Source: Rhytidiadelphus loreus
Taxonomy: Eukaryota > Streptophyta > Bryopsida > Hypnales > Hylocomiaceae
DNA length: 64,000 bases
Direction: 5' to 3'
NCBI GenBank assembly: GCA_947034895.1
Contig: OX344763.1
Span: 78,015,093 to 78,079,092, forward strand
Program-made: the position numbers and the translations under genes
Part shown: positions 2,727-62,000 of the stretch, in pieces
How the letters are laid out: the number at the start of each line of letters is the position of its first letter
Numbering within the stretch: position 1 is the stretch's first letter
Notes under the pieces: model-generated
What the model saw: only the letters and a program-made list of their open reading frames with translations
Database searches by the model: none
Told to the model about the DNA's origin: nothing

Positions 2727-4567
2727 ATAGTTTTGGACTAGATTGTGTATAACTAGATAGATGTATAGAATTAAATACCGGAAGTTGTACAAAGCGAATA
2801 TATGTAATTATATAAAGCCTTTATTAGTTTACTATGTACTTCAGCGGATTTATAAAATATGTACATTTATCATTTTCTTTCCACCTTGTGTATTGTTGCT
2901 TCGCCTTTGTCTATTTTTGTAATCTATTGGACCTTTTTGTAATAGTATAGAAGAAGCTTGTATGCTTAGATGGTAGGTAAAAGATTGTTCTATCTTTATT
3001 TTGGGTGTTGCCCTAAAGTCCGAAGTCCATTTTTTGGCCCAAACCACCCTAAACCACCCCTTTTGCTATGTTCACCTATGAATTAAATTTTCCAATTTTT
3101 TTTTTAATTGAACCAAAGGATCTTGTTCTACACTTGTCTTAGATGACGTGATAAAAAATTTGTGATGTTTGACCATATGGATTGAAAGTTATTAGCATTC
3201 GAAGTGAAAGCTCCAAATCTATTTAAAGAAGTTGCTAGGATTGCCCTCTCCATAGAAAAATCCATAACTTTTCCATTCCTAATCCAAATGGGATGAATGA
3301 AAGCCTCCCATTTAAAAGAAAATATAATGCAACTAGAAAAAAATATACAAATTTGTATTTCATTTTTTTGTGGATTTTTTTGTCTACCCGGAGTCCTGGA
3401 CCACCCAGTGTCCCGATCTCCCCTGTTTGAGGTTATTCCGTTATTGTGGCATATCCCTAACCCTTTGCTCCTAGGCACCGATTGGAATAGAAATTGTATT
3501 ATGAATAAACTCATAAGTTTATATATCATTCTATTTTATCATTCTTATGAAAAAGTTTTCAAAAGTTTGATTAAAAAATTAGATCATGGGCGCCTATCGA
3601 AAATCCATTTTGTCCCTTGCAGCAAGGACAATGAGAGTATGTTACTTTAGGGTCTAAGAAATAAAAACAATGGAAATTCTTTACCAAAGCCTAAAATAAT
3701 AAACAAATTATTTTATTGTTTCATATTTGATGAAATCTCCTTTAAGTCTTTAGAATAAACGCTAAATAATTCACGTTTTGTAACTTCTTTTCTATTAGTT
3801 TGAATCTTGTTTTAGTTGGACACATGATTGACTACTCCCTCATTTTTTTTTTAAATCCACAGTTTACAAATTAAAGTATTTAACATTTTCCATTTTTTCT
3901 CAAATGGCATTATGGCATTATTGAACAAAATGTCAACATTTTTGATTAGGAGACTAGGTGTATCAATTTGCAAAAAATTGTAACCGTATAAATTCAAACA
4001 AGACATGTTAGCAATCTCATAGGTTGCTAAAACACAACAATATCACTTATAGAGTAAAAGATTATAATGTTTGAACATGAGGGTGTTAAAACTACAAAAA
4101 TAATGTGAAGTCTTCCAATCCTCTTTTCAGTTTTCACAAGTAAAATTTAAAATAATTTAGACCCAAAAAATATGAGGTTAAATTGCCTAACATGTATAAC
4201 CCCAAACAATTTATGGCTTTTAAAAGTATACTCCATATTTTTTTTTTAATTAAAAAAAAAATTTGAATGTGATGTTTTCTCCAAGATCTTGTTGTGTTTT
4301 CGAGGCACATTTCCAAAAGCTCTCAATGCTACAAGAAGTCAAGATTGCAATGGGTACCCTTGCACAAAGTCTTGAAACGATAAATCACTATCATTTATTT
4401 TTAAGAATAGACTATTGATGCTATAACTAGACTTCAAGAAGAACTTCCTAAAAATAGCAACTTGGATACTACTAAAAATAGCAATTTGGTTAGGTTTTAT
4501 TTAACTTCGAAGTTTTGCCAACACCAAATTTGGGTGCTTCGGTCATTTAGGCAAAAAATCCAATCCC
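2727..4567. other. AT-rich non-coding stretch, diverged transposon interior
   Basis: No convincing coding frame is present. Around 3170-3215 and 4060-4090 there are phrases (GGATTGAAAG..TATTAG/TATAATG.TTTGAA) also seen at 53215-53250 in the hAT-like element 50946-56533, so much of this is probably interior sequence of a related element whose right end is at 5161. The part 4060-4400 has an inverted, diverged copy at about 33030-33300. Confidence 0.45.
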
Positions 4568-5161
4568 ACCCGTCTAGATGCCCGTCTATTTTTCCGTCCA
4601 TAGAACCGTCCACTTACCCGTCCACCCGCCCGTCCACCCGCCCGTCCACATGCCCGTCCACTTACCCGTCCACATGCCCGTCCACCTGCCCGTCCAGTTA
4701 CCCATCCACCCTTCCGTCCAGTTTTCCGTCCAAATACCCGTCCATCCCGCCCGTCCAGATACCCGTCCACACAACCGCCCACCCTTCCGTCCACATGCCC
4801 GTCCAGATGCCCGTCCAATTTTCCGTCCACATACCCGTCCATCCCGCCCGTCCAGATACCCGTCCACACAACCGCCCACCCTCCCGTCCACATGCCCGTC
4901 CACACAACCGCCCACCCTCCCGTCCACATGCCCATCCACCCGCCCGTCCAGATACCCGTCCATCACGCCCGTTCCGTACCCGTCGACGGAAGCTCGCCCG
5001 TCCAGCTCGCCCGTCGACGAAGAACGTCCATCCATTTCCGTAGTTTTCATCCTCTGTAAACGGTTCTCGTCCAGATTTCATCCTGACGGACGCCGGGGTT
5101 GAATCCTGACGTCCGTCTGGACATCCTGATGGATGGACAGGACGTGACGGGGACAACCTTG
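4568..5161. mobile_element. CGTCC-rich array and right terminus of a second hAT-like type
   Basis: From 4568 to about 5035 a degenerate 11-12 bp unit of the form CCCGTCCACNN is repeated some 35-40 times (variants CCCGTCCAGAT, CCGTCCAATTTT). This produces spurious Pro/Ser/Thr-rich frames on one strand and Gly/Trp/Arg-rich frames on the other. It is followed by inverted GACGGACG / CGTCCGTC motifs and a terminus GGGGACAACCTTG ending at 5161. That matches the ends of 50946-56533, which also begin and end in GGACGG/CCGTCC sequence next to GTTGTC/GACAAC. The terminus abuts a pseudogene frame that stops being homologous to its paralog exactly here. The left terminus and a matching target duplication (expected CTTGACGA) were not found. 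Confidence 0.6.
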
Positions 5162-7335
5162 CTTGACGACTTGTTCTTCGCTTTGCCAAAGTAGGCTTCC
5201 CTTGGTCTGTCGAGTAGTACATCCATCGTGGTGCTGGAGAAGAATCGTTCCTTTTTAAAGGCCTTCTAGTTCTCACTGATGATCTTGTTACGTGCATTCA
5301 TGAGCCCAAGTTGAGGTTTGATTTCATGAAGCTCCTTGATCACGAGGTTCTTCCGCTTACGATGTTCAACCCACTCTTTTGTGCTGAAGCAGTCATCCTG
5401 GACAGAGGTGATACTCTTCACCGTGACCTTCGGGTAAGCATGAGTGCGTTTTCCACCTGACTGATTCAACAGATGTTTTGCAAGTTTTGCAATTTCATCA
5501 TAGCTCAAATTACCCAAGTGCTTAAAAAATTCATGATTCAACATGCAACTCTCAAGATTCCAACCCGACTTTGCATTAAACATTACATCCGTGTTGGGAT
5601 TGACGAGCTCTCCGTGCGCGGCAGCATTGATCACCTCACTCTAGAGTTTGTACACCTCATTGGGCGCCGTGATGAGTCTTAGTTCGTTTGTCAACTTTAG
5701 CTTCTCCTCCTTCGACTTCAATTTTGAGATCTTTAGATTCTTTATGACGTCAATCATGGAGAACCTCACATACATTGCCCTCTCGAACACTTGAAAGATA
5801 TTGAGGTGAATGTAGTCAGAAACAAAAACACACGTTCATATATCAAGAGAATGTTCACGAGAATGATCATATATCAATATTGCAATTTAGCGCGCCTCGC
5901 GCTAAAACGCACCTAGAATGCTTCTCTCTTGTGCCGGTTCTCGACGGTCCTTCTTGTGGCCGCAAGAGATCCAATTGACTTTGTTGGCGTTGGATTTTCA
6001 GGCCTGCCCATATCCTCCCATACTTTTCGTGCTCCCAAGATATTGGTCGCCCAGAATGGTTGGACCGCCACAAAATGATTTGTGTGGTTGTAATAGGCGA
6101 AGATGGATCGCAACTTCTCAGCGTCCTGTGACCACACGACGAAGCAATTCCATTTATGGAAATGCTCCCTCTCACCACGTCCACATTGTTTTCGTCATTG
6201 AACATGTATTTGTTGGCTTCAACACTATGTTGTCCGTTTATGATGTAAAATTTCCCGGCCTCAATTTCCTCCCAACTTGAGGGCTTTTTGCTAAAGCTGA
6301 CAGGCATAACGCATAGCGTTTGTTTAGTACTCTTGTCAGGAATATTGAGAAGCCAGTTGACCATGTCTTCAACAATGCAGTTTTCTTTTGAACGGATGTT
6401 ATAAGTAGCAAGTGCCTCAATGAGCTGGGAAATGTCGATCTCCTTCTCCTCATCAACAGTGAAGACATAAGCATCGTCGCAGGTGCTCCAAAATTTCTTG
6501 TACACCTGGCTTACATGCTCATAGTCTGGTATCTTCTCTATTGCCGGGAGTGTGGCACATTTTCCATTTCATCCACGTAGCTTCCTTCCTCGACTTCTGA
6601 TGTTTCTGATTTTCTTGCTACCTTGGACTTCTGAGGCTTTGGGATAGCAGGTTGTTTCCCCTTTCACAATTGAGCCTTCGATGTTGGTGTAGCAGGCTTT
6701 CTCTGACTTCTATTGGCACCGGGCTCATGCTTAACTTTGAATTTTGATGTCTAGCTGACTTCGAGATGCATAATCTCCTTCGATATTGACCGAGGTCTAT
6801 TATTCTCTTGCTGCATCTCCAACTTTCCCTTGAGAGTGTGAAAGTCGTTAAAAAACATTCAAATTTTACTACATAGTCTTTTCCAAGAGAGAGGAGTTCC
6901 ATTGGCATTCTTCCACTCATTATTGTCTAGCTTTTTTTCCAACTCCTTGATCTCATCGCAGTATGGAGTAGGTTCCAGACTTGAGAGGAACAGGCTGAGA
7001 TGAAAGGGTATAATAATGGAGTTAATGCAAATAGCGAAATGGTATTGATCTTGTTTGCATGATCCAGGAATGGTTGTCATACATTTGACTTTGATCATGG
7101 GATGCGTATCTGCTTCTACATCCTTGATTTTCTCATGGAAGGAGAGATGCAGTTGGCACTGTGCATTTTTGAACTTGTAAGAGAAACAGATTTGGTTTAT
7201 AAATGGAATCATGAAGAAGCTCCATGATTCTACCATGTCTGGCTCTTTGAACTCCCAATATTCTCCTTCGATGAGGTTCTCGTCTGCACTATTATCGTCC
7301 TCGAGAAGTTGCACTTCACACTTCTTGAAGAACAT
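5162..7335 (-). pseudogene. Decayed paralog of the ParB/DGQHR-like element gene
   Basis: Minus-strand blocks at about 7335-6859, 6505-5927 and 5790-5162 align collinearly with the gene at 22406-26493. Examples are EGEYWEF vs EGEFWEF, KQTLCVMP in both, NGQHSVEA vs NGQHSVTA, MGRPENP vs MGRPRNP, and HEFFKHLGNLSYDE vs HEFFKWLGNLSYDD. The NGQHS-x2-A motif resembles the nucleotide-binding box of ParB/DGQHR-type domains; this assignment is tentative. Damage includes a TAG replacing the Trp of xLWSEV (5641-5643), a TAG replacing the Trp of xxW(K/R)xFK near 5270, a TAG at the exon end where the paralog has Gln (KFQ), and a frameshift near 6150. An intron at about 5790-5926 occupies the same position as the paralog's 24952-25054 intron. 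The copy is cut at 5161 by a hAT-like terminus. Confidence 0.75.
5886..5906. promoter_or_regulatory. 21-bp palindrome, CG-type, in intron
   Basis: TTTAGCGCG-CCT-CGCGCTAAA is a perfect inverted repeat with 9-bp arms and a 3-bp centre. It lies in the pseudogene's intron at the same position where the paralog's intron (24952-25054) carries a GT-type palindrome. Its function is unknown. Confidence 0.7.
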
Positions 7336-7411
7336 TTCCAGAGCCTCGGTCTAGTTTTCCATTCTGCAATGTGACGACAGACAAGGGAGGTAAGTTATGA
7401 TGTTCTTGCTA

Positions 7412-7726
7412 TTTAGCGCGGACCACGCTAAAGTGTCTCGGGAGAGATACATTTATTCTCTTGCGAGAGAAACATTCTATTTTGTGAGTACACAGTCTAT
7501 GATGTGGAAGGGTTTCGGCAATTGTACAAGCAGCTTGCAAGGGTTTAAAGAAGGTCATGATACAATAGGCAGGCAGGGGTTTTCGACCAAGGTTTATCTT
7601 CGTGTACGTAGGGGATGTGCTGTTTAGCACGACTCACACTAAACATGCACATTGGAGCAGGGTTTTTATTTCGGACGTGGTGTTTTCGTCGGGGTGTTGT
7701 TGTCATTTAGTGCGAGCCGCGCTAAA
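7412..7726. promoter_or_regulatory. Three CG-type 21-bp palindromes upstream of the ParB/DGQHR-like pseudogene
   Basis: Sites at 7412-7432 (TTTAGCGCG-GAC-CACGCTAAA), 7623-7643 (TTTAGCACG-ACT-CACACTAAA) and 7706-7726 (TTTAGTGCG-AGC-CGCGCTAAA) share the layout TTTAG-CG-CG-N3-CG-CG-CTAAA with the intron site at 5886-5906. Nearly all departures are CG to CA or TG, as expected from deamination of methylated CpG. They lie 80-400 bp 5' of the minus-strand gene. Candidate roles are operator, transposase/ParB-like binding site or subterminal repeat. Confidence 0.65.
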
Positions 7727-9299: not shown

Positions 9300-11160
9300 C
9301 GTTGTAGTAAGGGCGGGTTAGGGTTTATCTCTGTGTGACCTACCTTCCAGGTGGCCACCCGGAAAGTTGTGAGAGTAACAATCTTTCCTCCTTACCGGAC
9401 TAAGAACTTTGAGACGGATGTGTGTGTGTTGTTTAGAAGTTGATGTGTGTGTTACTTGAGTGGTGATGTTCCCTACCCCTCGGAAAGAGCAAGTGAGGAC
9501 CCTCCGAGGGTAAAACAGAGGTACCAAAAATCGGTGTGACGGATAGTGGAAGTAGAAATCCGAATCAAGACGAATCCGGGTAGATCCGTAACTCCAGAAA
9601 TCTATCTATCAAGATAACATCTAGAATTCCCTAGGACGATAACTCGTGTCATCTTAACACTTTTGTGGTGTTAAAGATACCTACACCTAGACTGCGTATA
9701 CGACAATGAGGAGTGAAATTTTGTACCTCACAAGCTTCCAAGTTGGTGTGCCGAGCTCCTCAAAGTCCAAAAACGTCCTCCAAAACCTACCAGCTTCACG
9801 AATTACCTTCCTTTGCAAGCCCTTGAGCTCTGATTCTGAAATAAAAAAACCATATCCACAATAAATCAAAAACTCAGTGACCCGCCACAAGGCACACTAT
9901 AAGCTGTGCAGCACTAGGTGTTTCTCCAGGCATGTTTACATTGCAAAGATCACAAGCATAAGAACAAAAGCATAAGAATACTACATGATCACAAGCTCTA
10001 AGAACAGAAGGGAGGGACTCAGTGATCAAAAGTTCACAAGCACTAAGGGAGGGACTCAGTGATCAGAAGTTCACAAGCACTAAGGGAGGGACTCAATGAT
10101 CACAAGATCACAAGCATAAGAACACAAACACATTTGAACCCTAGATGATAATTAGAGCAAACTGAAGACCTCAAACGGCTCAACAGAAGAACAAAAATGG
10201 CTCAACCAAAGAACGAAAATGAACCCACCGTGCAATTTCAGGGCAGACAATGTGACATGGGAAAATGAAGAATTCTGAAAGAATGGAACAGTTCAATTTT
10301 CAAAAGCAGAGGCTTTCCAACTAGACAGGTCGACCGGATCATACACAAGATCCCGTGCACAATTTTCATTTACCAACTAGACAAATCGACCTCATGCAAG
10401 TTGATTTGTGTAGAAAATTGAGTGCTCAACGTGCACCGAAATTCACGAACTCGTAGTTGCTCGACATGCTCAGAAAATTCACAATCCCGATGTGCTCAGA
10501 AAATTGAGGGCTCACAAACATCTCGTACACAAGATCCCAACGTGCACAGCAAACTTGAAAACTTTAACACACAATTTCTTCAACTGAACACACAAGACTG
10601 CCACATTCACAACAATGAAGAGAAAAATTGCGTCTACTTGCTAAGCATGAAACTATTGAAGCAGAAGCAAATCCTAAACCAAATCCGATAATGTGAGAAG
10701 TACTTACTTCACAAATCAGCTGCGTCGAGTTCACAAATTAGTTTCCCGAGAGGTTGGCTGAACACACAAGCTGTGCCGAGTTCCTTGATGGCCGCCAACC
10801 TTTGCAAACCTTTGCCACGACCTCAAATTTCCATGCAATTCAGCTTCCCGAGAGTCGTCCAAGCTGCGCCAAGTTCCTCGATGGCCGCCAACTTTCTCAA
10901 ACCTCCGCCAAGACCTCAAATTTCCATGCAAATCAGAAAGACGTGAACCCAACAATTGCAGCGCCAAACCCTAACGCGCACTCCCCATTCACAAGACACC
11001 TGATCTAGGTCTGCATACCCGCCTGACTCAGCAATGTTGGTACCTGCCCGATGTAGCGATGTTGATACCTGCTTGACGCTTTTATTCGCGTAACGACACA
11101 CAATGTGCGCTTTCAATTGAACCCTCCTTCATACGTAGGCCTTCTTGATCGATATTTAAC
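9300..11160. other. Non-coding with two small tandem repeats
   Basis: No supported gene is seen. Three 37-bp units beginning GGGAGGGACTC start at 10010, 10047 and 10084. A second duplication with a 92-bp period (units starting about 10750 and 10842, each with GATGGCCGCCAAC and GACCTCAAATTTCCATGCAA) covers about 10750-10934. Small minus-strand frames at 9687-9890 and 10731-10967 look accidental. Confidence 0.5.
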
Positions 11161-12539
11161 CCCTTAACAAATAGATCCTTTTTGAAATTTTAACACGTTT
11201 TTGCTTATGCTTTTGAACAGTAACACCATTTTACCAAATTGCTTATATCTTTATACAGTAACACCATTTACCAAAATTTCATGCAATTGGGTATAAAAGA
11301 AGGTTCTCTTCTCAAGATTCAAGTATTACATTGGATGAATGAGAAGGTACTTGGATGAAACAACGCATGCAAGACCTGTGTTCATCGTCCAGAATATAAA
11401 CATAAAAGGTTAATGTATGCTGTAACCTTTGATTGTGGACCACTTTGCCCTGTAATGCTATCGTGGACACTAAATGTCCAATGCATAATAGTTTTAATTC
11501 TTCTATATAGAATAGAAATGCAACTATTCATCCTCGAAATTGTGTAAAAATAAAGGAACATCTTGTACAGTATTTTCACTTTCAATTAATTCTTTTCTAT
11601 TTAAAAAAAAAATTGATTCCACAATATTGATTTCTTTAAAAAACACCTTCAATCTCTTTCTAAATTTAAGCAATCTACGCATGTGTTTTTGCCGTATGAG
11701 GTATAAAAATTTTGTACCACGTATTAAGAAGATTTTCATTGGAAACATTTCATTTTATGTAATTATATTATTTCTACAATTGACATTATCTAGAGTACTC
11801 AAAGACGATAAGTAGTTGAAATCTATAGCTGATATTTATAATTTTCGAATATCGATTGGTAAAGAAGTACTAAACTTTCCACTCTAGAGACCATACCTGA
11901 ACCCCCAAATATGGGAATTTTATTTTAATTTTACCCCAATGAACCCCCAAATTACTCTATTGGCCCACTTCGACACTTTGTAACAAAGCATGATTTAGTG
12001 TCTTCCGAGAAAGAACACATTGAAAAATTATAAAGTAGAAAAAAAAGATAAAGAACATTAGAATTGTTGTACTTTTCATTACATGATGTTCTCAAAAATT
12101 GGTGAAAAAAGAATCCAAGTTAGGTACGTATATAAGAAAATTAGGGAATGTAAAGGCAAGATCAAATGTTAGTCCATAATTCTTCCAAATAAACTTCAAA
12201 CCTCTACATAAACAAAATTTGATTCCACACTATTTTTATTTTTTAAAAGGATTTTGGCTCTTCATTATCCTTAATTGTGAATTCTAAATGGTTTTCTTTT
12301 TTCTATTCTACATGAACTACAAAGTGTCCATTGAAAAATATAAACCAATGAAATTGACTATTTTCAAATAAATAAGACATTGTTCTTTAGAAATTAGAAA
12401 TAATTGAATAATTGTTATTCTTTTAGGGTTATTTTGTTTCTAATGTGGTTGCTATTATGGCGCTTTTTCAGCAATTTAGATTTGTAGTTCACTTTGACGA
12501 CATGGATAGTTAAAAATTGTTATTCTTTAGTGTTATTTC
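11161..12539. other. AT-rich non-coding stretch
   Basis: No gene supported. A short duplication with a period near 100 bp (TTGTTATTCTTT.AG.GTTATTT..TGTC, about 12412-12462 and 12512-12565) precedes the B3-like relic. Confidence 0.4.
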
Positions 12540-13619: not shown

Positions 13620-14539
13620 AGGGTTCTAGTTCAAGTGGGCTTCTAGTTTAAGTGCCCAGTCTAAGGTCCTTATTTTTATCCTATTCTGCAGTAGTTGAAC
13701 TTCCTCGCTATGTCTAACCCTCTATTTCGTAACTCAGTACTTGTTCAACAATGCATCACTTCGTATTTTCCCTTTTGTACGACTACACTTGTTCACCACT
13801 AATTCTAGGCTAAAGATTATGGAGAACACTATATTCATTAAAATGAGAGTTTTCCAATGAAATGGGAGTCTATTTTCAACATGTTGCGGATTTGTGGAGA
13901 CATCCAAACCTAAAACAAAGATTTTTTTTTCTCAATGATCACGACAAAAGCAATTGATTGGCATCCCAAACAATATATTTCATAGAACAATGCAGTGATT
14001 GTGTTATGCACCATCAACAAAAGAAGATTTCCATAAAATATACACACAATGGATGAACACATAGTAAAACGTGCGGGATAAAAAGCATTGCCTAAGATTT
14101 CATTCCAGGCCGCGAAGTACCGCATTCCCATTTCCCATACTATGTAGTGATTTTGAAGTGTGCGAAGAGTATATCATGGTATATGAGCCCATGACCACAA
14201 GGTCTTGGAACCACTGAAGTCAACAGCTGAGAAGTACTCTGCAAAGCAGTAGCCCGGAAACCATATAAACAAACCCTCATATCCCCCCCGGATTCACTAT
14301 AAAGCGGCTTCAACACCTTCTTGTAACGATTACTTTGCATACTAGAGAAGGCAGTAGCGCATAATACTCCACTCGTTGCCTTAGAACATATGTGATTCCA
14401 AGTGCTATTAACAATTTAAGTTCGCTCATTAGCTACAAAATAGTAGAGCACCATGAATGCACTACTTTGGGTTCTATACAGTAACTGCACAACTTCTTTG
14501 AATGTGTAGACCGTGCATGAACAATATGAACAAGTACTA
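13620..14539. other. No supported gene; short minus-strand frames of unknown value
   Basis: Minus-strand frames at 14140-14340 (66 codons) and 13910-14131 (73 codons) have fairly even composition and could be exons, but neither has a recognisable domain and no clear splice pair joins them. Confidence 0.3.
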
Positions 14540-15508: not shown

Positions 15509-17131
15509 TCATGTCAGAGTCTTAGACACTCTAACCACGTCCATGAGCCTGTTGTACTCTCGCCTATTGCGCTCGTCGCATAGCATTCGCTGACCAATTT
15601 TTGCTGAACTTTTAGCCCCAAATGATTTGAGGTCAACTTCACGACTGCAGTGAAGGTGCCTCAACCACGGCAGTAGGACATCCAAGAGGAACGTATCCTT
15701 AGGACCATTCCCCCTGTTCGTCCAAGTGTCAGGGAGAATTACATTCTCGCTCTTGTTCATAATTTGCTTACTTGGACTGTCGTCCACTATGATAGTATTA
15801 TCCGACGTAAAATTCCCACGTGAGCCATTGAACAAGGCACTCAAGTTCTTGAGGAAGAAGTCCTTATTTGTACCCAGCTCTTTGAAAGTAACGACCCTTC
15901 CAAAACCATCCCTGCACTTAAGAGTCATGCAGGTGTCTTGAGCAAGTACAATTATGGGGCTCTGTAGACCATCGAAAAGATGCTTGACTACGCGTTTAGT
16001 GTTGGCCATAACCATGGAGCTCCACACTGAAATAGTAGCTATCTTTCCTAATTCACTCAGGAACTGAGAACAGTGCGGCCTCACATAAACTTCTTTCAAT
16101 CCTAGAATGGTGGGATTTGTGGCTGACTGGCCTTGCGAAGGATCTAGTACGTGACTATAATAGCCCTTCGATTTCAAATCTGTAGTCGCACATAAAATCC
16201 CATTCAGGTCAAGGATGACGTTGAGCCACTTCTCCGTCACCCCGGACCTAGATGGAATAGTTCCCTCCCTTGACGGCTCTTCACGCAGACGTGGAGGATC
16301 CGGACCCTGCTATCAAAGATACAAATGTGCAGCTAGTTACTAGCCTGCACTAACACATTTACGAACCGAACGCCAAAATACAAAATGAATGAAAAAAAAG
16401 AAAAAACAAGATGAACTTTGGCTATTGCATGGAGTATGACAATCGAGATTACGGCAATTTTAATTTACAGTTACAAAAGTAATACCTGATTAGGATTTGA
16501 GTTCCGCAACATTTTGACGACATCGGACACCTTCATTAGAGATTGCTGAATTGCGACCTCCCCGGGCATAATCTCGGGAAAGGCTAAATCATCATTCTCA
16601 ACTTCCGGTTCTGCTGAGGGTAGGATTTTTGCTTCAAGGGCTGGCAACTCCGTGACTTCCTGGGGGATGTCCATAATATCATCGTGATCAACATGAAGAA
16701 CATCATGCTCTTCATTTGGATTGAGATTGGAGGAGGAAGGCATAACATCAACAGCAACTGGGCCTGCCATTTAGAATTATAGAAAAAGGGAAATGTAAGA
16801 ACATATTATATTAATTCCGCAGAAAACAGACAATACAATACAAGACATATTGATCAAAATTATGAACTTCGTCGTTCCATTCACAAAGAGTTTTCATTCA
16901 CCAAAAAATAGTATTTGTCTCTGATTTAAAAACTATACCTACGTTTGATACAAATCAGGTCGAGACGACCTAAAACTACACATTTTCACCAAGTGATTAT
17001 ATTGATCAACCTGCAGTTTCATCTGATTCATCCGAATGGACATTTCGCTGGTCGACATTCATTGGTGATCGGTCCACAACAACATCCAAATCAACAGAGA
17101 CGGAAGGATCCACTTCAGGTGATACAATCGA
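15509..17131 (-). pseudogene. 3' exons of the ParB/DGQHR-like gene: FCP1-like HAD phosphatase domain
   Basis: Three exon blocks, 17131-17011, 16763-16486 and 16306-15509, join in phase with GT-AG introns 16764-17010 (phase 1) and 16307-16485 (phase 0). The last exon encodes an FCP1/SCP-like HAD domain. It has WLNVILDLNGI (DxDxT box with the second Asp replaced by Asn), VRPHCSQFLSELGKIATISVWSSM, TNKDFFLKNLSALF, and the typical TIIVDDSPSKQI box. FCP1-family enzymes dephosphorylate proteins such as the RNA polymerase II tail. The lost second Asp suggests weak or no catalysis here, although DLNG variants are known in plants. The frame ends at TGA 15509-15511. The first block starts right at the hAT target duplication and continues the frame from 22406, so this is the same gene as 22406-26493. 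Confidence 0.75.
16957..16971. promoter_or_regulatory. Palindrome, GT-type, in intron
   Basis: AGGTCG-AGA-CGACCT fits AGGTCG-N3-CGACCT exactly and lies within intron 16764-17010 of the ParB/DGQHR-FCP1 gene. Confidence 0.65.
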
Positions 17132-22215: not shown

Positions 22216-23431
22216 CCACGCTGGTTGTCCACGTCAATTCTGAAGCCCTGCCACGTAGGCAAAATCTATTTACCATGGGGTAAAATTTTTTACCCCTCCG
22301 CGACGCGATGTCAAGTAAACTCGACACTTCGTGACACGCGACACGCAACGTCAGACGTCATACACGACGCCTAAACCCAAAAATATGTCAGACAAGACAA
22401 CCCTGGTCCCTTGTTCCAGTAGCCTCCAATTTAATCTCGGGTGGTGGCGCTGGAGTGTCGGGGACAATGTCGCTCGGGGGAGGCGGGGGAGGAATGTCTG
22501 GGATGAGTTTTGTCGGGGGAAGCGGCGGTAGAACATCAAGCCTAATGTCGCTCAAGGGCTGCGGCGGAGGTACGTCTGCTCTTGTAGGTGGTCGTGTTGG
22601 ATTCGGGTTCGTCACCTTGCGTTGAGATTGACCAGCGTCAACAGTAGATGCCCCTACAACATCCACCGGATTAGAAGACTAACTTTGGATCATCAATTGC
22701 GAAGCAGTCTGTGCGGGCTCTATCGATGCCAGAGGAACTACACCACTTATCTTGTTCATGATGGCTTCAAACTGGTTACCCGACCGCGTTGTATAATCGC
22801 AAATTAGATTTTGGAGTTGATCTAGTCGCACATTTGTCTCCGCATACATTGCAAGATTTGATGCCCTATCTTGAATCCTCTCTGCTTGCAACTGTGCGAT
22901 TTGCGAACCGTAGTCCTCCTGGTCGAAGGCGGCCCTCCTCCGCTTCCCATGGTGCACGGGTGGTGGCGTGCTCGATGGTTGAGTCTCGACCATTTCCACG
23001 CGAACCGGTTGCCCTGACGACGCAGATGATGTCCCCACATTCTGGGACAAATTAATGGGAGTGTAATCCTCCTCGAGCGCAAAGTCATCAGAATTGTCGT
23101 CATCGTCGTCCTCAGTGTCTAAATCAACACTCTCTCGTTGTGATGGCCCTGGTTGCGATGAAGGAGTCTGTGTCAAATTCCATGCAGACTTACGCCTTCT
23201 TTTAGACGATAATGGCGTTGAAGGACCACCAGGTTTCCTACTATGGTACATCTCGTCCACGTAGTATCCCCCCAGAAGAAAGTCATTCTTGTCTAACGAT
23301 TTTCCCAGATTGACAATTGATGTCCAGGGATCCGACTCGTCAGATGTCCCGACAGTGTAGACATTAAACCCTAGCATCTGCACAGGCAATTCAAATATTG
23401 GATATTAGTGAATTGATGATTCATGCAGTTT

Positions 23432-23585
23432 AGGTCGTGCCGACCTAAACATCTCAAAGACTGCACAGTAATTCAGATAATCAGCATTAAATTGCTGAAC
23501 TCCATATCCCTGTTATTTGAATGAATCGACGTAGGAATTCAAATCACAATATGCTATCCACGCAATAATCAGCTCGACTCGACCT
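23432..23585. promoter_or_regulatory. Two GT-type palindromes in intron
   Basis: AGGTCG-TGC-CGACCT at 23432-23446 (flanked by TTT and AAA, so the full 21-bp form) and AGCTCG-ACT-CGACCT at 23571-23585 (one mismatch) both fall in the 221-bp intron 23378-23598. Confidence 0.65.
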
Positions 23586-24976
23586 AAATACAACATACCA
23601 TTGCAGCGCATGTGAATTTCACCCCTACAAACAATGACATGACACTCCTACAGCCGATTGAGTAGCGCCTAAGGATGTTTATGTAAAACTCCATGCGCAA
23701 CTCAGTATTGTGAATGCGGTACTCCAGCTCATTGTATGCCCGCGGCTTATTGAAGACGTCGGTGTTGGGAGCACGGTAGGCTGGTTTGGGAGGAATGATT
23801 GTTGCCTTATCCGGATGCTGCAGAAAGGTCAAATACACTTTCTCGACTGCCTGGCTATTACTCGCAGAATAATCTCCCATTCGTTCATGCTTCGCTGGCA
23901 CGTAGTCCGCATAATCCATGTGGTATGTCTTGAGGACCTCATCGCTCTGTATATAGTGCAAGGCTTGAGTTTGCTCAACTAGATTAGAACAGATGAAGAG
24001 CCAGGTCTGAATTTCATGAAGCAAGGGCTTCTTCATTGCCTGAAACGAATTCATAACCGCAAAAAAATACGGCATCGCTGGAGTGCATTTGCTTTTGTTG
24101 AGCACAACTGGAGTGTATCGAAAATCTAATATGCCGAATTTTATCCCAGACAAAGTGCTCTCCGTCCACGCACGTACAGGCCAATTCAAGTGTTCATCCT
24201 TGTTGATGTCATATGGTCGGTAATGCGCCACCGCAATGGGTTTTACAAATGCTGCACACTGAGCTAAGAAGACCTTAAAGAACTCTGCTGCGTAGGGTGA
24301 AATAACATCTGTCTTCTTATTCCGTGACTTCGTCTGCTTGGCCTCTTTCCAGTAGTCATCCTCCGGTTGCTCTAGAAGAACATTCATCATCGCTCTAGTA
24401 ATGGAGCGACTGTTTTTGAACTCTCTCCACTTTTGGGTGTTGAGTTCATTGAAGGCGTTCAACAAGCCCAGGCTGGGGTCAATGTTGTTCAACTCCTTCT
24501 TCACGAGGTACTTCCTCTTTCGGCGCTCAACCCACTCCTTGCATGTATAACAGCTTTCCAAAACGGAGGATGCCTGTTTTATTGTCACCTTCGGGTGACT
24601 GTGCTTTCTCTTCACTCTATCTTGGTGAAGAATGTGCTTCGCCAATTTACTCATGTCGTCATACGAGAGGTTGCCAAGCCACTTAAAGAATTCATGCGTC
24701 AGATTTCCTGACTCTGACTTCCACCCTGCCTTCTTATTAAATTTGACAAGAGTGTCGGGGTCAATGAGTTTGCCGTGAGCGTTACTGGAAATGACTTCGC
24801 TCCACAATGCAAATACAGGATCTGGAGCGGTTATGATTTTCAGTTCATTCCTAATCTGCAGCTTCTCCTCAGCATCCTTCCCTCGGGATGCTCTTTGCGA
24901 CTTGACAACATCCAACATCACGAATCGCTTGTTCATAGCCTTCACAAATTCCTGTGAACATCATACAATCACATTT

Positions 24977-24991
24977 AGGTCGAGTCGATCT
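24977..24991. promoter_or_regulatory. GT-type palindrome in intron
   Basis: AGGTCG-AGT-CGATCT (one mismatch) lies in the 103-bp intron 24952-25054, the same intron position where the 5.2-7.3 kb paralog carries a CG-type palindrome. Confidence 0.6.
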
Positions 24992-26525
24992 GAATTGCTA
25001 GCATGTTCTAAAACGACATTCACATTTTATTGAAGCAGGCAGTTTGTTAGCTACCTGAAATTTCGCTTTGTTCGCTTTGTTCTCAGCATTTCTTCGAGCA
25101 TTTGATTGCGTTCCGATTGGATTGGCATCCTTCGGGTTCCTTGGTCTTCCCATTGCCTCCCAAACAGTTCTGGCTCCTGGGATATTTGTTGACCAAGACG
25201 GCTTCATCGCTATGAAATGGTTTACTCGGTTATAATAGGCAGAGATGGCCCTCAATTTTGTAGTATCTTGAGACCACACCACGTAGCAATCCCACTGCCG
25301 GAAGTTTTTGACAATGGACTCGTCTAAATTCATGTCCACCATCTTCTTGCTAGCCGTCACGCTGTGCTGACCATTACTTAAAAAGAACTCCCCATTTTTT
25401 ATTTCCTCCCATGACTCTTTACTAGGTTTTAGTGCCTGATTTGTTGGCATTACGCATAGAGTCTGCTTCGTAGTATGATCTGGCATATGTACTAGAAAGT
25501 GCAACATGTCCGTTGCCAGTCGATCTTCGTGGCTTCTAATATTCATCTCTGCTGGCGCCACGATCAATTGTGAGATATGGATCGACTTCTTTTCTTCTAT
25601 TTCAAATATGTACGCATCAGTACATGTTGCCCAGTAGTTTTTGTACGCCTCCGCCGATTTCTTGTAATCGTGTTTCCTTTTTGGATCGTGCGCCTCGGGA
25701 ACATCGGTCACTTCGGAGGCGAAGCTAGGTTCCACGTTGGCAGAGGCAGCCACATTCAGCTCTACAACTCTCTTCGATGAACTGGACGCCAGATTGCTCT
25801 TTCTTGGCCCGGGCGGAGGTGTCGCGCTATTGAGGATTCTTCTTGTTCCTCTGCTGGACTGTGTGCCGAGGGTACCCAATGAACCCTGTCCTTCTCCTCC
25901 TTGGCTTGGAACGTCCTGTGATACCGATCTGGGTGCCATTTCTTTTCGTTTCAACTCCAGCTTTGCTGCTAGCACAGTGAAATTGGTGAACATCTTCCTC
26001 AGTTTGTTACACAATGTCTTCCCAGTGAATGTCTTACCAGTAGTGGACCTAAAAAAGTTATCGTCAATCTTTTTCTTTAACTCTGGAATCTCATCTCTAT
26101 ACTCTGTGGGCTCAAGCGTAACTAAAAAGGGCGTGATGTTGAATGAAATTTTCGCGGAGTCTACAATGAATGTGAAATGGTATTGTTCTTTCTCCGGTAC
26201 CCCAGACAATGCCGTCACACAGTGAATTTTTACAATGGTACCAGTGTCTGGAGCGATATCCTTGATCTTCTCTTCAAATGAGACAGAGTAATATGGTTCA
26301 CTGTCTACATACGTGTAAGTAAAGCAGATCAGATTTTTCAGGGAATCATCTTTAGACTCCAATATTGCATTTTTTCAGGGTTCTGAAACTCCCAAAATTC
26401 TCCTTCGTTGTCGATGTCATCTCCATCATCTTCTTCTCTTTCACGTTGGGATCACTTGAAGAAGGCTTCAAGTTTTGGCACTTGAACGTCCATATTGCAC
26501 AACAAGTGAGTTGTCCAACATATTT

Positions 26526-27127
26526 AGGTCGATCTAAATTTCTCCATTCATAGATGGAGCTCCAATATTTCAGTATCTTATTGTTTCGATTATTGCTGAG
26601 GACTGGTCGGGTCTATTGTTGATACTTTTTAGGTCGAATCGACCTGATTTGTTATATTCTAAATTCCTCATTTATTTTAGAAATTATATTCTTGAATTAT
26701 TTTGAATTTTATCTTGGTCTCTTCTTTGTGTGAAAGATTTGGTAATCTCTAGAGTTCGGGATCAGGTCGAGTCGACCTAAGTTGTATTAGTTTTTTTTGT
26801 TAATGCATTTCATGCTCAAGCTTTAACACGGTCTTCTTTTAAAGATATTTCTCGTTTTCTGATTCATTATTTATTGAGTATCGGCTGTTTAGGTCGACCC
26901 GACCTAAACAGATTTGATTTCATTTAATCATAGGAAATTCTTAGTGTTGTTCTACTGCTACCATGTTGTTATTTTAGGTCGGCTCGACCTGAATTGAGTT
27001 CATCTGCAAATTTCTTCTGTGCTTAGTGACTGCTATGTCACATCTCATTTTAGGTCGACCGACCTAAACGAACGTCTTCAATCACGAGGAACAACTGTAA
27101 TCGACCTAAAAGGACAGTAGTCGACCT
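26526..27127. promoter_or_regulatory. Cluster A of GT-type palindromes, 5' of the minus-strand gene
   Basis: AGGTCG-N3-CGACCT sites occur at 26631-26645 (centre AAT), 26764-26778 (AGT), 26891-26905 (ACC) and 26976-26990 (GCT, G in place of A at the arm edge). A 2-bp-centre version is at 27052-27065, with partial sites at 26526-26535, 27101-27107 and 27121-27127. Spacing is 75-135 bp. Most are extended by T/A flanks. They begin 33 bp upstream of the gene's ATG at 26493. Confidence 0.75.
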
Positions 27128-33925: not shown

Positions 33926-34309
33926 TCACAGACCGTGCACGATTGTACTATTGTAGTTCGTTGACGCGCTTCACATTTTTGGTATGACATGCAGGAATCC
34001 TTAGTGTCTCGGGAAGTTTCCATTGAAATGTACCATAGGGTTCACGGTTTTGCTTATGATTATCCTCCTCCTCACTCAAGAATTTCTTTGTATTTCAAGT
34101 TAGTCAGAGTCGTCTGCAGAGTACATATTTCGCGAGATGGTACACTTGCAACTGCTACATTGTGTACTGCTTTCATATACGGACCAGTTCATTATATTTC
34201 AGAGTCGTACAGTAGTAGTTTAAAAACATCCGAATATGTCGCCGGAAATCACAGAATACGACATTAAGAGAAAACAACATTTGAAGTTCCTGAATTTCCG
34301 GAGACATTC

Positions 34310-34919
34310 AGGTCGTGTCGACCTAATTGAACATGAAGAGGAGCCTCATCGTGGTGATCATGTTTTAAACAGAGTGAAGGAACTTTATTACTAACATTGA
34401 GATTCAGGTCGACTCGACCTGAATGACGATCTTGTATTTAGTGATGTCAGTATCTATACCAATATAAATTCATAACCCTATAAATTTCAGGTCGAGTCAA
34501 CCTGAAAGATAGATTAGTGAATGTTATGTTTATTTAAATCTCACAATGAAATTGTTCCAAATTCGAAACAATCTAATACCAAAATTATAAGAAATTGATA
34601 AATAATTCATGAATTATTTTTTATTCAGAATTTTTAGGTTGATTCGACCTAAATGAAATTATGGTACTGAATTCAGAATTAGAATTAACTTGAGGTGCAA
34701 ATGTAGACAATACATGTAATGACCTTTGCAACTATTTGAACTTATCCTTTTTTTATTTTACAAAACATTCAGTGGTCCTGGGACTTAATTACATGTGGAC
34801 ATTAGGTCGACTCGACCTAAAAAAATCTTCGTGCATATGAATTAGTATTAGGTTCGTAGTTATTTAAATCATTTTCTATGCAATAATCTATGTATTTATT
34901 GTTCAGGTCGATTCGACCT
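34310..34919. promoter_or_regulatory. Cluster B of GT-type palindromes, 5' of the DUF7869-like gene
   Basis: Six sites: 34310-34324 (AGGTCG-TGT-CGACCT), 34406-34420 (centre ACT), 34489-34503 (AGT, one CG to CA), 34636-34650 (ATT, one CG to TG), 34804-34818 (ACT) and 34905-34919 (ATT). Spacing is 83-168 bp and the last ends 89 bp before the candidate ATG at 35009. The consensus is the same as in cluster A and in introns of the divergent gene. Confidence 0.75.
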
Positions 34920-35008
34920 AATAATTTCAATAACTGCTTATTGTTTAAACAAGCACATTCGGGGATTTGTCTTCTAACTATACATCACATTGTTTATGTG
35001 TAGATACT

Positions 35009-37849
35009 ATGGGCTCCATGATTGATCCTTTCAACAATATACTCTGGTTTGACGATGATGGGGATAGCGGACATGATATAATTGTTGACATTCCTGAGTG
35101 TGAGGGAATTCCTCGACATTTGTGGAATACAAGTGTTGTTATTCTCTATAATGAGGAAGGTACTCTTATTGGTGATGGTGTATGTCACAGTGTGAATTTT
35201 GAGCTCGTGCTCGATGCCGACGGTCCTCTCGGCGATACTCATGTAGCAGTGCACATTTCCAAGACTCATTCTAAAGTAGATATCCCCCAGGAGAGGGTAC
35301 GTGAGTTGGTAGCATGGCCTATTCGCCTAGTCCATTGCTGTGGAGCAAGTCTGCATGACCATGATGCCAGGGATAATCACAATCGATTACTATCAAGTCG
35401 TATGAACCCACCTTCCTTGAAGTCCAACCAATCATATACAAGTAGCATTCGAAATCCGCCTCGCGAGACTTGCATCAAAATGAAGGACCTTCTCAGTCAA
35501 GAATCCATCAATTTGGTGTCTAGTAAATTGTGCTGCAGTAGAAATTGTGTGCAGCCTTTTCTAAGAGAAAAAATCCGAGCTTTCCGGCAGCGCATGTACC
35601 AAAACACATCGTTCAAGCATAGAGCTTTTATGAAAACTGAAGTGCATAGACAAGTGCATCAAAACTCGTGAGGTAGAAGGGTGGTTACAATTGATGAGAT
35701 AGATGTTTGCATGAGAGCTTGGATGCATATTGCCGGGGTCCTTGAGTCTACTTTTTATCGCTATCAAAAATATGCTTTGAAGGATGGTCGTGAAGCCAGG
35801 GAGCATGGTAATTTGGAATTGATGAAGCCAAGAAAGCACACAGAACAAGCTGCTGTTACTCTGAAATGTATCTTAGAAAGAGAAGCGGATCACATGCCAC
35901 ATCGTACCCGAACTTTGAAGTCCGGGGACAAGGTCGTCTCCAAAATCTTACCAACTACTTTTCAATGGAAAGGTCAAATGGCAAAAATCAACGAGACCAA
36001 TGTTGCATTTGGGCTGAAGGAAGTGTCCACATCTAACTTGAGCAAAATCAGGTCTACTCGGTTCTCTGAGTACGATGTGAAGCAACCTGGAGATAATTTT
36101 GCTCGTTGTGGTACTTGTGACAAGTTGCAAGAGCTCATGAAGAGCGCTCTTGCGGGCTCTGAAACCGCTATGTTATGGTCTCGGAGGTTGGACAAACACC
36201 TAGCCATTGCTCGGGCTCATAGAGAGATCTATTATGCGAATCCATATTGGTCGCACAATTCTCCCCATGAATGTCTTACAATCATGCATGACAAAATGGA
36301 TCATGCAAAAACGGCTTCGCCTGTCTTCTCTCACAAAAGTAAGGAACTCGATGGCCTTATGAAGTTGCCCGTGTCAGTCACTGGTATGATTGCGCATGGT
36401 CACGCTGATGTCCGGTATGCACATTATGGCTTGGATCTCTTTCCCCATGATTCAAACTACACCATTGGTTCAATGGCAAAGTTGTTGCGAGACCTTGAAC
36501 AACCACCAAAGTCTTCTTCTAGACAGTTGTTTGTCAATGCAGGCTCGTCACCATTGTTTGAAGCAGTGTTGAAGGGCAAAGAGATGTGTCAAGCGTCGCT
36601 TCCTAAACCACCGATAACCTTAGAGCCTGCAACGCCGTTGCCACCTATTCTTAATGTGCAAATGGATAATACCACGGGGGACAACAAAAACAGATATGTG
36701 TTTTGTTTTTGGTCTCTACTTGTTGCGAACAAGATCTTTCGTGAAGTATATGTGAACTTCATGATCGTTGGTCATACGCACGACGATATTGGTGCATTGT
36801 TTGGGAGATGGAGCATGCTATTGAAGAAGGAGAGTTTCCCAACAGTTCTTGCGTTTATGAAGTCTTTCATGGATGTGAAATCCATTCCTACTATTCCTCA
36901 CCTAATTGAAGAGGTGCCCAATTTCAAGGGCTTCATTGCAAGTTCATTTCTTGACGGTGGCAACATCCTCGTAGGACATACGAGACCACAACAAGTCAAA
37001 TTCTATTTAGATTCACATGGAACTCCGGTCATAAAGTACAAGCTACTGTGCACTGACGTGGACTGGTTGGGGGAAGATGGAAGAGGCATTAAGTTGTGGA
37101 AAGAAGACGCTGAAGGGCTTAGTTTGTGGCCGCGTGGAGTACCTTCGGCAGTTCAACAAAGAGCCATGAGAGGCGCACAAGACATTATGAAAGGTATATT
37201 TGGATTTGAGAAGTATTGGGAAAACATGTGCAATGCGGACGTGACTGGGGAGTACCGAAGGCGCTATGAACATTTAGTGCACTACTGGCATGATGTGAGG
37301 GTGGCAATGCAAAACCCTGGACTGAGCACTACTGTTCTGCGAGATGGTTTTTGGCCGATAACGCGTGTTCAAGCGACTCTAGTGGATCAGTTAGGCAAAG
37401 ATGGGGAGGATCGTGAAGAGTTTGCTGAGGATGATGCCTATGTTGGGCCTTTGTCCGGTCGCCCACAACCATCCTTCAGGGTGGGATGTGATCTCTTCAA
37501 TGGCTATTTCGTTGCAGTTCGACCTGCAGATGGTGACAGTCGACCAGTTTGGATTGCAAGGGCATTGTCTGATCCAAACTGTAATGCAGAGAAACCGAAT
37601 TGTGTATTCATTCAATACTTCCGTCCAACATCTCAAAATCAAGATGTTCAAGACTACTACACTGGGTGGGATAGCGAAAGAGGTTTGCGTTGGAAGGTCG
37701 ATGAAAATGAGCCGCCAGTTTGGGAGCATACAAACGCTCTGATGACAACATGGAGGTCACAAATCAAAAAAGATGTCGTGCGGTGGATGATCAAGATCCC
37801 GGCTGTTCAAATTGAAGTAATCAACCAGAGTCTTGCATCATACACTTGA
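35009..37849 (+). pseudogene. DUF7869-like, probable transposase-related protein with one in-frame TGA
   Basis: One plus-strand frame from ATG 35009 (just after a likely acceptor, ATGTGTAG) to TGA 37847-37849 spans 946 codons and is broken only by TGA at 35669-35671 (codon 221). Before it there is a Cys cluster (SSKLCCSRNCVQPF) and after it VVTIDEIDVCMRAWMHI..STFYRYQKYAL. Then come ARCGTCDKLQ, a short Asp/His-rich motif (IMHDKMDHAKT), QMDNTTGDNKNRYVFCFW at codon about 551 and FMIVGHTHDDIGALFGRW at about 585. The N-terminal zinc-type cluster and the MHDKMDH, MDN..GDNKN and GHTHDD blocks match what I know of plant and algal DUF7869 proteins. Those are repeated, transposon-associated and probably RNase-H-fold. 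The rest of the frame has no further stop or frameshift, so decay is recent or the TGA is tolerated. Alternatively the TGA lies in an unrecognised intron. Confidence 0.75.
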
Positions 37850-38685
37850 TATCTAATGATAAGTGTGCATGCATGTTGGATGTTTCCTAATTATATTATA
37901 GTACATTGTCATGTTTTGTAGAATTGATGGAATTCTAATATAGAAAAATATGTGGAATTTCTTTAGGGCGATAGAATTTATATTATGAATGTTTGCTAAT
38001 GCATAAATCTTTCAAATTGTATGTTTTTTATTTAGAAAAAATAATGCATTTACATCTAGTATTCATATCTTTTGTAATATATTATGGTACTTTGTTTTCT
38101 CTATTTCTCATTCGATTCATTTTTTTATTTCACATTGTGTATATTTCATTTGGAATTGTACTTTGAATAATAACCAAAAAAGTAGTGGGTATACCCACTT
38201 TTTTATTTGTTAACATGTTAAGCACTTGTCACATTTAGGATAGGGGGCCGGTTGGAGGTTACAACTTTTCTGCTTGTAAAGCTCACTTAGCACCACCAAG
38301 TCATGTACTTTTGTCATGCGCTCATACGAATTCAATGAGAATCGAACCCGGACCGCTTGGATGAGAAAAACGATCTTTTACAACCAACCGCAGATGTCAT
38401 GACTTGGTGTTCAGGATAGGAAATGATCTTCACTTATATGAATCAAAAATTGCTATTACAAAGAATGAAATGTATTGCAAGACTCTACAAGTAAAAAAAC
38501 TCTCATTTTAATGGAAATTGCTCTAATGACATGAATGAGTTCAGTGTATATCAACCTAAATTGTCTAAATCCAACATTCAATTTTTAGCATCTAAATAGA
38601 TATATTATTTTGAGAGGGTCCCAAACTCCCAAATTAATGAATATTGTGTTTGAGCATATGAATGTGTTTCTCTTTTTTTTCCTCA
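37850..38685. other. Non-coding, with a small inverted-repeat element at 38292-38409
   Basis: CACCAAGTCATG (38292-38303) and CATGACTTGGTG (38398-38409) are perfect inverted copies about 95 bp apart. Between them on the minus strand is GGTTCGATTCTC preceded by GGTCCG, which matches a tRNA B box. This could be a tRNA-derived SINE relic or a MITE. A TGGGTATACCCA palindrome occurs at about 38197-38208. Confidence 0.4.
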
Positions 38686-59017: not shown

Positions 59018-62000
59018 CTAGTCCTCTTCCTCCATGAACCGATGTAATCCGGCTCTGATAGTAGCAAGATTGTCGTCACTTATGTCATAAATAACCTCCC
59101 CACCTTTCCGCCTACTTGGCTTCGGAATCATAACAAATTTTCTATGCACCACAAGGTGTGCATCAATATGGGTTGGTTGTGAATTGCCTAGATGAACATA
59201 CCCATTGTTCCACTTTTGATAGTAAGTACCCCGTATGATGAAGTCACCAACTTCAAACTCCAGGCCCCAAGCACATTTGAATCCATGTTCTACCTCATAC
59301 TTTCTCCTAGTACACTGTAAAATATAGACCTCCACTCCTTCGCTATTGCCTTCTGTAGAAGGGACAACAAAGTTGTCACCTGGCCGAATGAGATCGCCAA
59401 ATGCCTCGTCTTCCACGCCCTCCTCCCAATCTTCACCATCTGCAGCGTTGTGGTCCGTCATATGGTCAACAACTAGTTGGAGATCGTATGGCTTCAACTT
59501 TACCAAATCCCAGTTCTCAACATGAGACTTGTTAACGCAGTTGATGAAATTGCCGTCAATGCAATCAACACAGAAGCACGATAATTTATGCACAAAAAGT
59601 TGCGTTGGACCCTCAACAACAAAAGAGTAAATTGAATGCAAGGCCTGGGAGCCTGAGACAGTCTTGCAATGGTAACTGCGCTCTCTTGTGGTGTCCTTCG
59701 GTATTTCCCAGAAGTATTTTTGAACCTCTTTGATGCCAATCTTTTCGAAGTTTGTATCCACAATCCTTCCCATAGTCTCATTCAAAAACGCCATTGCATC
59801 GTGGGCGTTTTGCATCCTCCTCCAAGTATTGTGCAATTGGGATTGCCTTAGAGCGCGCTTCACGACAACACCAACTCCGTCCCACTCTCCCTTCTTGTGA
59901 CCCGTTCCAAAAAAATTCCAGTTCATAGTGCATCCATTTGTTAGGCTGGGATATCTGGCTACAAAATAAAATGGTCGGGCACCTTTGAACTGCCCCGCAC
60001 AGCCGTCGGACCAAACGACATGGTGCTTCAGTCGAATTCCTGTCAATGCAATCTACAAATATCAATACACTCCGTAACATTTACAAATGTTATACAAAAT
60101 CTGTACAGAGCAGAACTTTTACATTACACACGCATCATAGTCAAAGAGTTCCGTGCCACCCACAATTAACTATTACATGTAAGAACTACGCATGTAGAGC
60201 AAATGAAAAAGCGATATGGTCAATGCAAAACTTGGGGCAATGTTAAGCGTACCTTGAGACTCTAGCCATCGCCAGTGTTGCATCAAGCAATGCTGTACAA
60301 AAAAGGAATCATGCTTTTCATCATCAGTTATGTAGAAGTGAAATTCCTTCACCATAACTCCGTCTGGTTTAAAGCGATATGTGATGTGGACAAGGATATT
60401 GATATGTGTGAAGCACCAATATATGCTCTGGATCTGATTTTGAATCTCAAAAGTGTAGTCCTCAGCGAAATCAATGTGTGAAAAAATCACATCTTTGCCC
60501 AAACTCTGCATAGCACGTTTGCAGTGGTTGTCCTACCACCTCGCAACGAAGTTGTGCTTCACGAACTGGGGCAGTTTGGACTTAAAGTATTCAAAGAACA
60601 CTTGTGGAGAGGTCTCTTTGTATACCTCGACAATCCTCTTTCGGGGCTTTCCATCCCATGTCACCCCAATGATTTCATTTTCAAAACACTTCCAACTGAC
60701 ATTTGAAGACGATGATAACTCAAGTGCGCAAATCGGAAGCTTTGAAATACCACAATTTCCTCATGTACCCATGACACATTGCAAAGCATGCTACTCTTCG
60801 TCCTCAGGCTTAGGGCAAACAACTTGTTGCCACAACGCTGTTGTGCCTGCATATGTCTTCAGATGCGCTTGACACTTTGCTTCTTCTTCCAGTCGAAAGA
60901 GGCAGACATCACACATGCATTGACAATTCTCAATGAAGTGGATTCCTTTTGTGCCATCCCAAATCCGATTGAACCCCTTCCTGAGCATGTCGATCTCCAC
61001 GTGGTATCTACAATAGCAGATGTTCCTCTTGTTGCATGCTTTAACAAAGTAAGGCTTCAGTTTTTCAAAGGCTCTCTGTTTGATTGGCACGTCCGGGTGC
61101 ACCACCTTAAATCGCTGGTAGAATGCGGCCTACAAGAATGCAAATGTTTTTGAGAAAGCAAAGCAGGTAATACAAAAGAGGTAATGAAAAGTACAAAGGT
61201 TGTTCAAAAAGTAACCTAGATCGTAATACCCAGTAGAATACATCAAGTACAAACCTCCAACAAAGTAGATCACCCGACAGCAAAGGCTTTCTGATTACTC
61301 AAATGTGAGACCCCATGGTACCCTTCGTACATGATGTACAGTTACTAAGACAATATGTATCTGCAACATTGTAATCAACGTATTCTAGAGTACACATTCT
61401 AACCATCAGAGAAAAGGGAGATACAACAAGGTGTGTAGCATACATGATGGATGGAAACAATGTTTAGGATAGTATATTTGACAATGCAACGATTGTACAT
61501 GGGGCTACAACACTGCAGTCAAATCAATTTGTACCTGACTTTCGAGCAAATAATGAGTGCAATGTTTGTCATAAGTATTCGGACTAATCCACTTCTGTAC
61601 AATTTCCTTCCTGTTGGGACTTACACGGGTCTCTTCTGTCCACCACTTTGTAACGAGGTCTTTAATCTCACTAGACAATCCTGACCTCTTTCTACGTCTT
61701 ATAAGTACAAAAGGTGAACCTTGCAATCTTACAGTATTGCAACGGGTTATAGCCACCCTCAAATTAGATGGGTGAACTTTCAAAACCTGTGACAAAGCTT
61801 TTGTGCTTGTAATTCGAGTATAGACAACCGCATCCAGGAGAACAGCCTTTCTAGCGAGCATATCTGCCGATTGGACATCCTTGACAACATCTAACTCCAA
61901 TTGATAGTTTTTTAGGAATTCAAATTGAGCCTTGGCATCTTGACCCCGAGGATAATATACTCAGGAAGAAAAGGAGAAACACTCTCATCCTCCAAAAATC

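Follow-up and report, generated by a model that had tools for sequence, protein, structure and literature searches.

Why should two related copies of a moss gene be accompanied by two versions of the same palindrome? The question is raised by 64,000 nucleotides of Rhytidiadelphus loreus DNA (GenBank assembly GCA_947034895.1, contig OX344763.1, positions 78,015,093 to 78,079,092 of the forward strand; hereafter the window), which contain a GT-type transposon copy (13825 to 38650) and a CG-type remnant, named for a dinucleotide in the palindrome arms. Both carry a gene, here called NGQHS, and a first-pass annotation had suggested that an element-encoded DNA-binding protein and its cognate sites had changed specificity together. 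Here we show that the palindromes belong to a three-gene transposon, that their class follows gene lineage, and that sites have been retuned in place. From these sequence patterns we propose, with a probability of roughly 0.55, that the element encodes a dimeric protein, probably NGQHS, which binds the palindromes and protects the element from silencing.

Palindrome classes and gene lineage

The palindrome skeleton, TTTAGNNCGNNNCGNNCTAAA, spans 21 bp, and the bases of its half-sites are numbered per arm. Allowing up to two mismatches, it matches 16 places in the window (mean 0.22 and maximum 3 in 100 shuffles), and a relaxed rule finds 18 sites in the window and 0 in its reversed sequence. Across the R. 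loreus genome (407 Mb, 489 contigs) there are 392 exact matches against 5 for a reversed control pattern; chance or low complexity as the source of the palindromes was ruled out by these shuffle and reversed-pattern controls. Within the half-site, bases 2, 4, 5, 8 and 9 hardly vary. The spacer usually follows the ACT/AGT type, and most classes prefer TGCA immediately outside the site. The sites sit in introns and promoters, not in exons.

All four palindromes first described around the CG-type remnant are present, one in the first intron of its NGQHS gene (5886..5906, CG/CG) and three upstream (7412..7432, CG/CG with T for one inner C; 7623..7643, CA/TG with one inner change; 7706..7726, TG/CG). 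The accompanying statement that all carry CG on both arms holds for two of the four (5886 and 7412) and for 5/8 half-sites; the other three read TG or CA, each a single CpG transition of CG.

Nor does the genome hold only two palindrome types, as had been supposed. Among the genome matches, 50 distinct sites were listed, all on contig C1; of the 17 regions around them, 15 have matches to NGQHS or to DUF7869, another gene of the element, and two (L009 and L010) are non-coding relatives. One region without sites was retrieved alongside these 17. Counting by the relaxed rule in the window and 19 loci, 20 sources in all, gave 155 sites, with 0 in the reversed sequences, and their 310 half-sites comprise 114 CT, 111 CG, 65 GT and 20 others. 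A two-class scheme was rejected by this finding of at least three classes. The classes sort by locus: 276 of the 310 half-sites agree with the class most common at their locus, where 10,000 permutations reach at most 180, and the two arms are equal in 127 of the 155 sites.

To follow the classes along the gene, 91 of the 93 exon-1 places in the genome were sampled (85 as small stretches, 6 within larger loci) together with 8 others. Of these 99 copies, 97 had a usable exon-2 start, and 89 of the 97 an intron-1 site. An exon-2 DNA tree, short and with weak support (stars on 14 of its 90 inner branches), needs 6 changes of site type for the 89 labelled copies; 200 label shuffles need at least 44. 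For an exon-1 tree of 34 rows, of which 22 carry a label, three changes are enough, with CG nested within CT and GT placed outside in two branches. Palindrome class thus follows gene lineage, as the first-pass annotation had expected. A nearest-reference classifier based on about 60 exon-2 residues was tried and replaced by the tree: it placed 92 of 142 half-sites as expected, many of them close calls, and assigned L027-like copies to a CG reference.

Comparing the palindrome dinucleotide with variable protein residues, a check proposed at the outset, revealed class-correlated positions in both exons. At exon-2 position 62 (window numbering), 26 of 27 GT-type copies have D and all 52 CT or CG copies have N, which makes it a candidate reader of half-site base 6. 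In the Physcomitrium patens protein A0A2K1IHY2 the corresponding stretch, GELYNPDT, has N. Exon 1 has three positions with residues found in GT rows alone (18, 130 and 224) and 8 such positions for CG rows. These associations are correlations that rest on few independent changes.

Retuning of sites in place

In 11 copies from R. loreus, compared in a table that allowed up to three mismatches, NGQHS intron 1 carries one site and intron 2 two sites at comparable positions, of GT, CT or CG type according to lineage. Homologous intron positions therefore hold different dinucleotides in different lineages, as first noticed in the window. Each step between classes amounts to one base per arm, and since the sites keep their position across the three lineages, they have been retuned in place. 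Intron sites with one odd arm occur twice in the lineage of the window GT copy and once in a CT lineage (GT/CT, AT/GT and CT/GT), a pattern that conversion of one arm after the other would produce.

Agreement extends between the two ends of the element: sites in front of NGQHS and sites in front of DUF7869 are of the same class in five elements (the window, L011/L012, L018/L019, L016/L017 and L008/L139). The pair L008/L139 was chosen as a test of this agreement, and 9 of its 10 half-sites are CT.

Tandem site arrays also exist, with six sites at 57-bp steps in L012 (4812-5117) and five at 41-bp steps in L046, as in VANDAL targets.

The element and its genes

The palindromes belong to a transposon with three genes (NIF-phosphatase-like, NGQHS and DUF7869), imperfect terminal repeats and 4-bp target duplications. 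In the window, the GT element runs from a left terminal repeat (13825..13849, + strand, AACACTATATTCATTAAAATGAGAG; the same repeat is found at the ends of L009 and L010) to a right one (38626..38650, − strand), and its flanks, GGAG and TGAG, do not match exactly. Element ends start with AACRY. A full CG-type copy lies at C1:22458103-22476132 (18,030 bp, ends AACRYTATATTC...) with the duplication ATTT, and a second at C1:69294629-69311260 with ACAA. The palindromes themselves were considered as terminal repeats and rejected, being internal and different in sequence from the element ends.

The NIF or CTD-phosphatase-like gene of the GT element (15509..16240, − strand; Pfam NIF, E-value 1.9e-16) is 57% identical to its counterpart in the CG element L011 and has a GT/GT palindrome nearby (16954..16974). 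This third element gene recurs at L011 2387-3130 and, in another organism, at L024 5293-6003. NGQHS lies on the − strand, with exon 1 at 25001..26362 (5' end frame-broken in this copy), exon 2 at 23584..24945 (the last codons of the open reading frame enter intron 2) and exon 3 at 22679..23389, an open reading frame with a weak match to other copies. Its intron-1 palindrome was first placed at 24977; it starts at 24974 (24974..24994), and its arms read GT/AT, not GT/GT. Intron 2 has a first site at 23568..23588, with one odd arm (CT/GT), and a second at 23429..23449 (GT/GT). Four palindromes upstream of NGQHS (26628..26993; starts 26628, 26761, 26888 and 26973) and six upstream of DUF7869 (34307..34922; starts 34307, 34403, 34486, 34633, 34801 and 34902) are all GT/GT.

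The divergent DUF7869 gene, likely the transposase, lies at 34967..37849 (+ strand; two open reading frames in this copy, 34967-35671 and 35681-37849; Pfam DUF7869, E-value 2.5e-39). Its protein conserves D204/D207, D329 and D369/D371 and forms a single 951-aa frame in L012.

The broken CG-type remnant occupies 5.2-12 kb of the window. Its NGQHS gene (5159..7335, − strand), with a truncated exon 2 and an exon 1 interrupted by stops and frame breaks, shares 85% DNA identity over 2279 bases with the CG element, and further pieces of the element centre (11103..11975) share 78-84%. Adjoining it, at 4462-5102, open reading frames overlap on both strands with short PST/GRV-type repeats. Elsewhere in the window, an open reading frame at 59018-60046 (− strand) with an SDGCAGQFK motif and no Pfam match perhaps encodes another transposase-like protein.

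The NGQHS protein and relatives of the element

Modelling of the NGQHS protein gives a ParB-like domain joined to a degenerate amino-methyltransferase fold. In the exon-1 model the ParB N-terminal fold is found, and an NGQHSV motif, invariant in 34 rows, falls at the stretch corresponding to the ParB CTP box (GERR-type), a position matched by eye. Exon-2 residues 1-235 are modelled as helical, and residues 236-453 take a beta-class amino-methyltransferase fold in which D274 is invariant (60/60 rows). Motifs were assigned by fold and from the general motif patterns of such enzymes; on that footing the catalytic DPPY/W motif is absent, reading D-F-R in most of the 60 rows, and the glycine motif reads G-x-K, with K443 in 52/54 rows. 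Neither DUF1985 nor DUF287 gave a Pfam match in the window exons or in any of the 60 and 34 family members.

Named relatives come from the mosses Physcomitrium and Ceratodon. An intron-containing NGQHS gene of about 39% identity is also present in L023 and L024, assigned to the Synechococcales bin AVDCRST_MAG81, each with 8 sites, in both introns among other places; 32/32 half-sites are CT, with outer arms TTCAG or ATCAG. We infer that these two are plant contamination in a cyanobacterial bin. A scan of viral contigs with the exon-2 alignment found no relative, none of 29 pattern-matching stretches being confirmed, which limits a viral origin and does not exclude it.

The two non-coding relatives, about 450 bp long (L009 4351-4804 and L010 4505-4951), have the family's terminal repeats, CT-type palindromes and clear target duplications, AACA and ATAG. 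The L009 relative has 15 near-full-length places in the genome; palindromes were read in L009 and L010.

Discussion

We propose that a two-fold symmetric protein encoded by the element, most likely NGQHS, occupies the palindromes. Since the sites lie before genes and in introns, it would coat the non-coding parts of the element and keep them free of silencing, and could extend the same protection in trans to short non-coding relatives that retain sites. A shift of its preference at half-site base 6 or 7 would then let selection swap that base at one site and one arm after another, and in the order GT to CT to CG such shifts would yield new self-recognition groups. A self-recognising anti-silencing protein would leave just these traces: symmetric sites, intron and promoter placement, non-coding relatives and lineage retuning. 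The identity of NGQHS as the reader, its action as a dimer and the anti-silencing effect are the interpretative parts of this proposal.

Several observations weigh against it. Class tracking among close copies is partly plain common descent. GT rows do not form one clade on exon 2 (approximately unbiased test, p 5e-49), while 41 residues private to the window GT copy and L006 point toward a single GT clade, and this conflict leaves the order of class changes not firm. Throughout the A clade the intron-1 site is AT/GT, and in the B clade it is GT/CT with altered inner bases, both read by a rule relaxed for the inner CG without a reversed control of its own. The L013 and L015 lineage mixes CT and CG half-sites, only 9 of its 18 sites being symmetric, and together these cases indicate that single sites can stay off-type for long. 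Mixed types around the same copies, named beforehand as evidence against coupled change, are thus found in a minority, which also includes some single odd arms; the majority is unmixed. Two further tests of end-to-end agreement, L140 and L141, had neither gene nor sites (two of three tested ends). NGQHS has no confident sequence-level family match, and Foldseek gives no E-value below 0.001. Because the three genes travel together, the reader could be another of them.

Among the alternatives, the best placed is a role in transposition, in which an accessory protein at the palindromes joins the element ends, like TnpA of maize Spm at subterminal repeats. The non-coding relatives, with repeats, palindromes and duplications all retained, fit this idea, and TnpA is reported also to activate a methylated element (PMC10398659). 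We consider it less likely: the full-length CG element has its sites in introns and before genes, more than 1 kb inside both ends (the first site listed is at L011 2269 and the repeat at 1104; the last is at L012 5328 and the repeat at 9133). Operators through which the three genes are autoregulated, by activation or repression, would suit the clusters immediately in front of NGQHS and DUF7869 in GT, CT and CG elements, but sites in both NGQHS introns in every copy of the intron table, and in non-coding relatives without a gene to regulate, make this unlikely. Equally doubtful is a reader other than NGQHS, whether a host protein or the DUF7869 or NIF product: linkage of the three genes alone names no reader, but one host protein shared by all copies would not keep three lineage-specific classes, and DUF7869 is far more conserved between classes than NGQHS. 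That NGQHS is an active methyltransferase which labels the palindrome as self, on adenine or on cytosine N4, is improbable given its D-F-R and G-x-K motifs, despite the fold and the invariant D274.

The closest precedent for an anti-silencing NGQHS protein is VANC of the Arabidopsis VANDAL elements. VANC21 and VANC6 are element-encoded, sequence-specific proteins that act in trans; their motifs lie in introns and in intergenic and terminal non-coding regions and differ between related families and even subfamilies (PMC5735166). Lineage-specific motifs in non-coding parts are found in the moss element too, whereas sequence-specific anti-silencing, tested for VANC, is proposed here by analogy. 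VANC motifs are short, non-palindromic, same-oriented and spread mainly by tandem repeats (PMC5735166), unlike the 21-bp moss palindrome, whose intron copies hold position and change bases in place. VANC has DUF1985/DUF287 domains and VANDALs are Mutator-like, whereas the moss protein is ParB- and methyltransferase-like and its transposase candidate is DUF7869. The best explanation is that the moss element works like VANC without being a member of the VANC family. The first-pass view that no plant element of such arrangement had been described thus needs amending: the VANDAL elements are functionally close, with proteins unrelated to those of the moss element and motifs that are not palindromic (PMC5735166), and such an arrangement is not without precedent in plants.

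Other systems share single features. TnpA of maize Spm/En is an element-encoded binding protein that relieves methylation-linked inactivity (PMC10398659); in the moss element such a binding protein is proposed. The moss element is not of the CACTA group, its ends reading AACRY with 4-bp duplications. CACTA (En/Spm) ends begin with CACTA and the duplication is 3 bp, and we know of no palindromic 21-bp sites in Spm/En. Eukaryotic retrotransposons, including some in streptophytes, reportedly carry cytosine methyltransferases, so that a transposon with a protein derived from a DNA methyltransferase would have company; those are C5 enzymes, whereas the moss protein has an amino-methyltransferase fold with altered catalytic motifs and belongs to a DNA transposon. 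With bacterial ParB-parS the element shares a ParB-like N domain, judged by fold, and symmetric palindromic sites, several per replicon or element; it differs in the NGQHS box in place of a GERR/GxHR-type box, the fused methyltransferase-like fold and its setting in a eukaryotic transposon, and a helix-turn-helix and CTP use are putative. Our literature search found no description of a eukaryotic transposon that combines a ParB-like domain with an apparently inactive methyltransferase fold.

A more speculative version, which we regard as a long shot, is that NGQHS is a ParB-like clamp turned epigenetic shield, loading at parS-like palindromes of introns and promoters, spreading over the element and blocking silencing, with self-recognition groups split by one-base retuning of half-sites. 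It would be a eukaryotic counterpart of ParB-parS, and sequence-specific anti-silencing would have originated independently a second time.

Should the anti-silencing proposal be correct, plants would have evolved sequence-specific anti-silencing on more than one occasion, using unrelated proteins. One moss genome would then preserve each step of a specificity change, from the starting class through half-converted sites and mixed lineages to the finished classes, and natural variants would allow a direct test of how one protein can change jointly with a dozen scattered sites.
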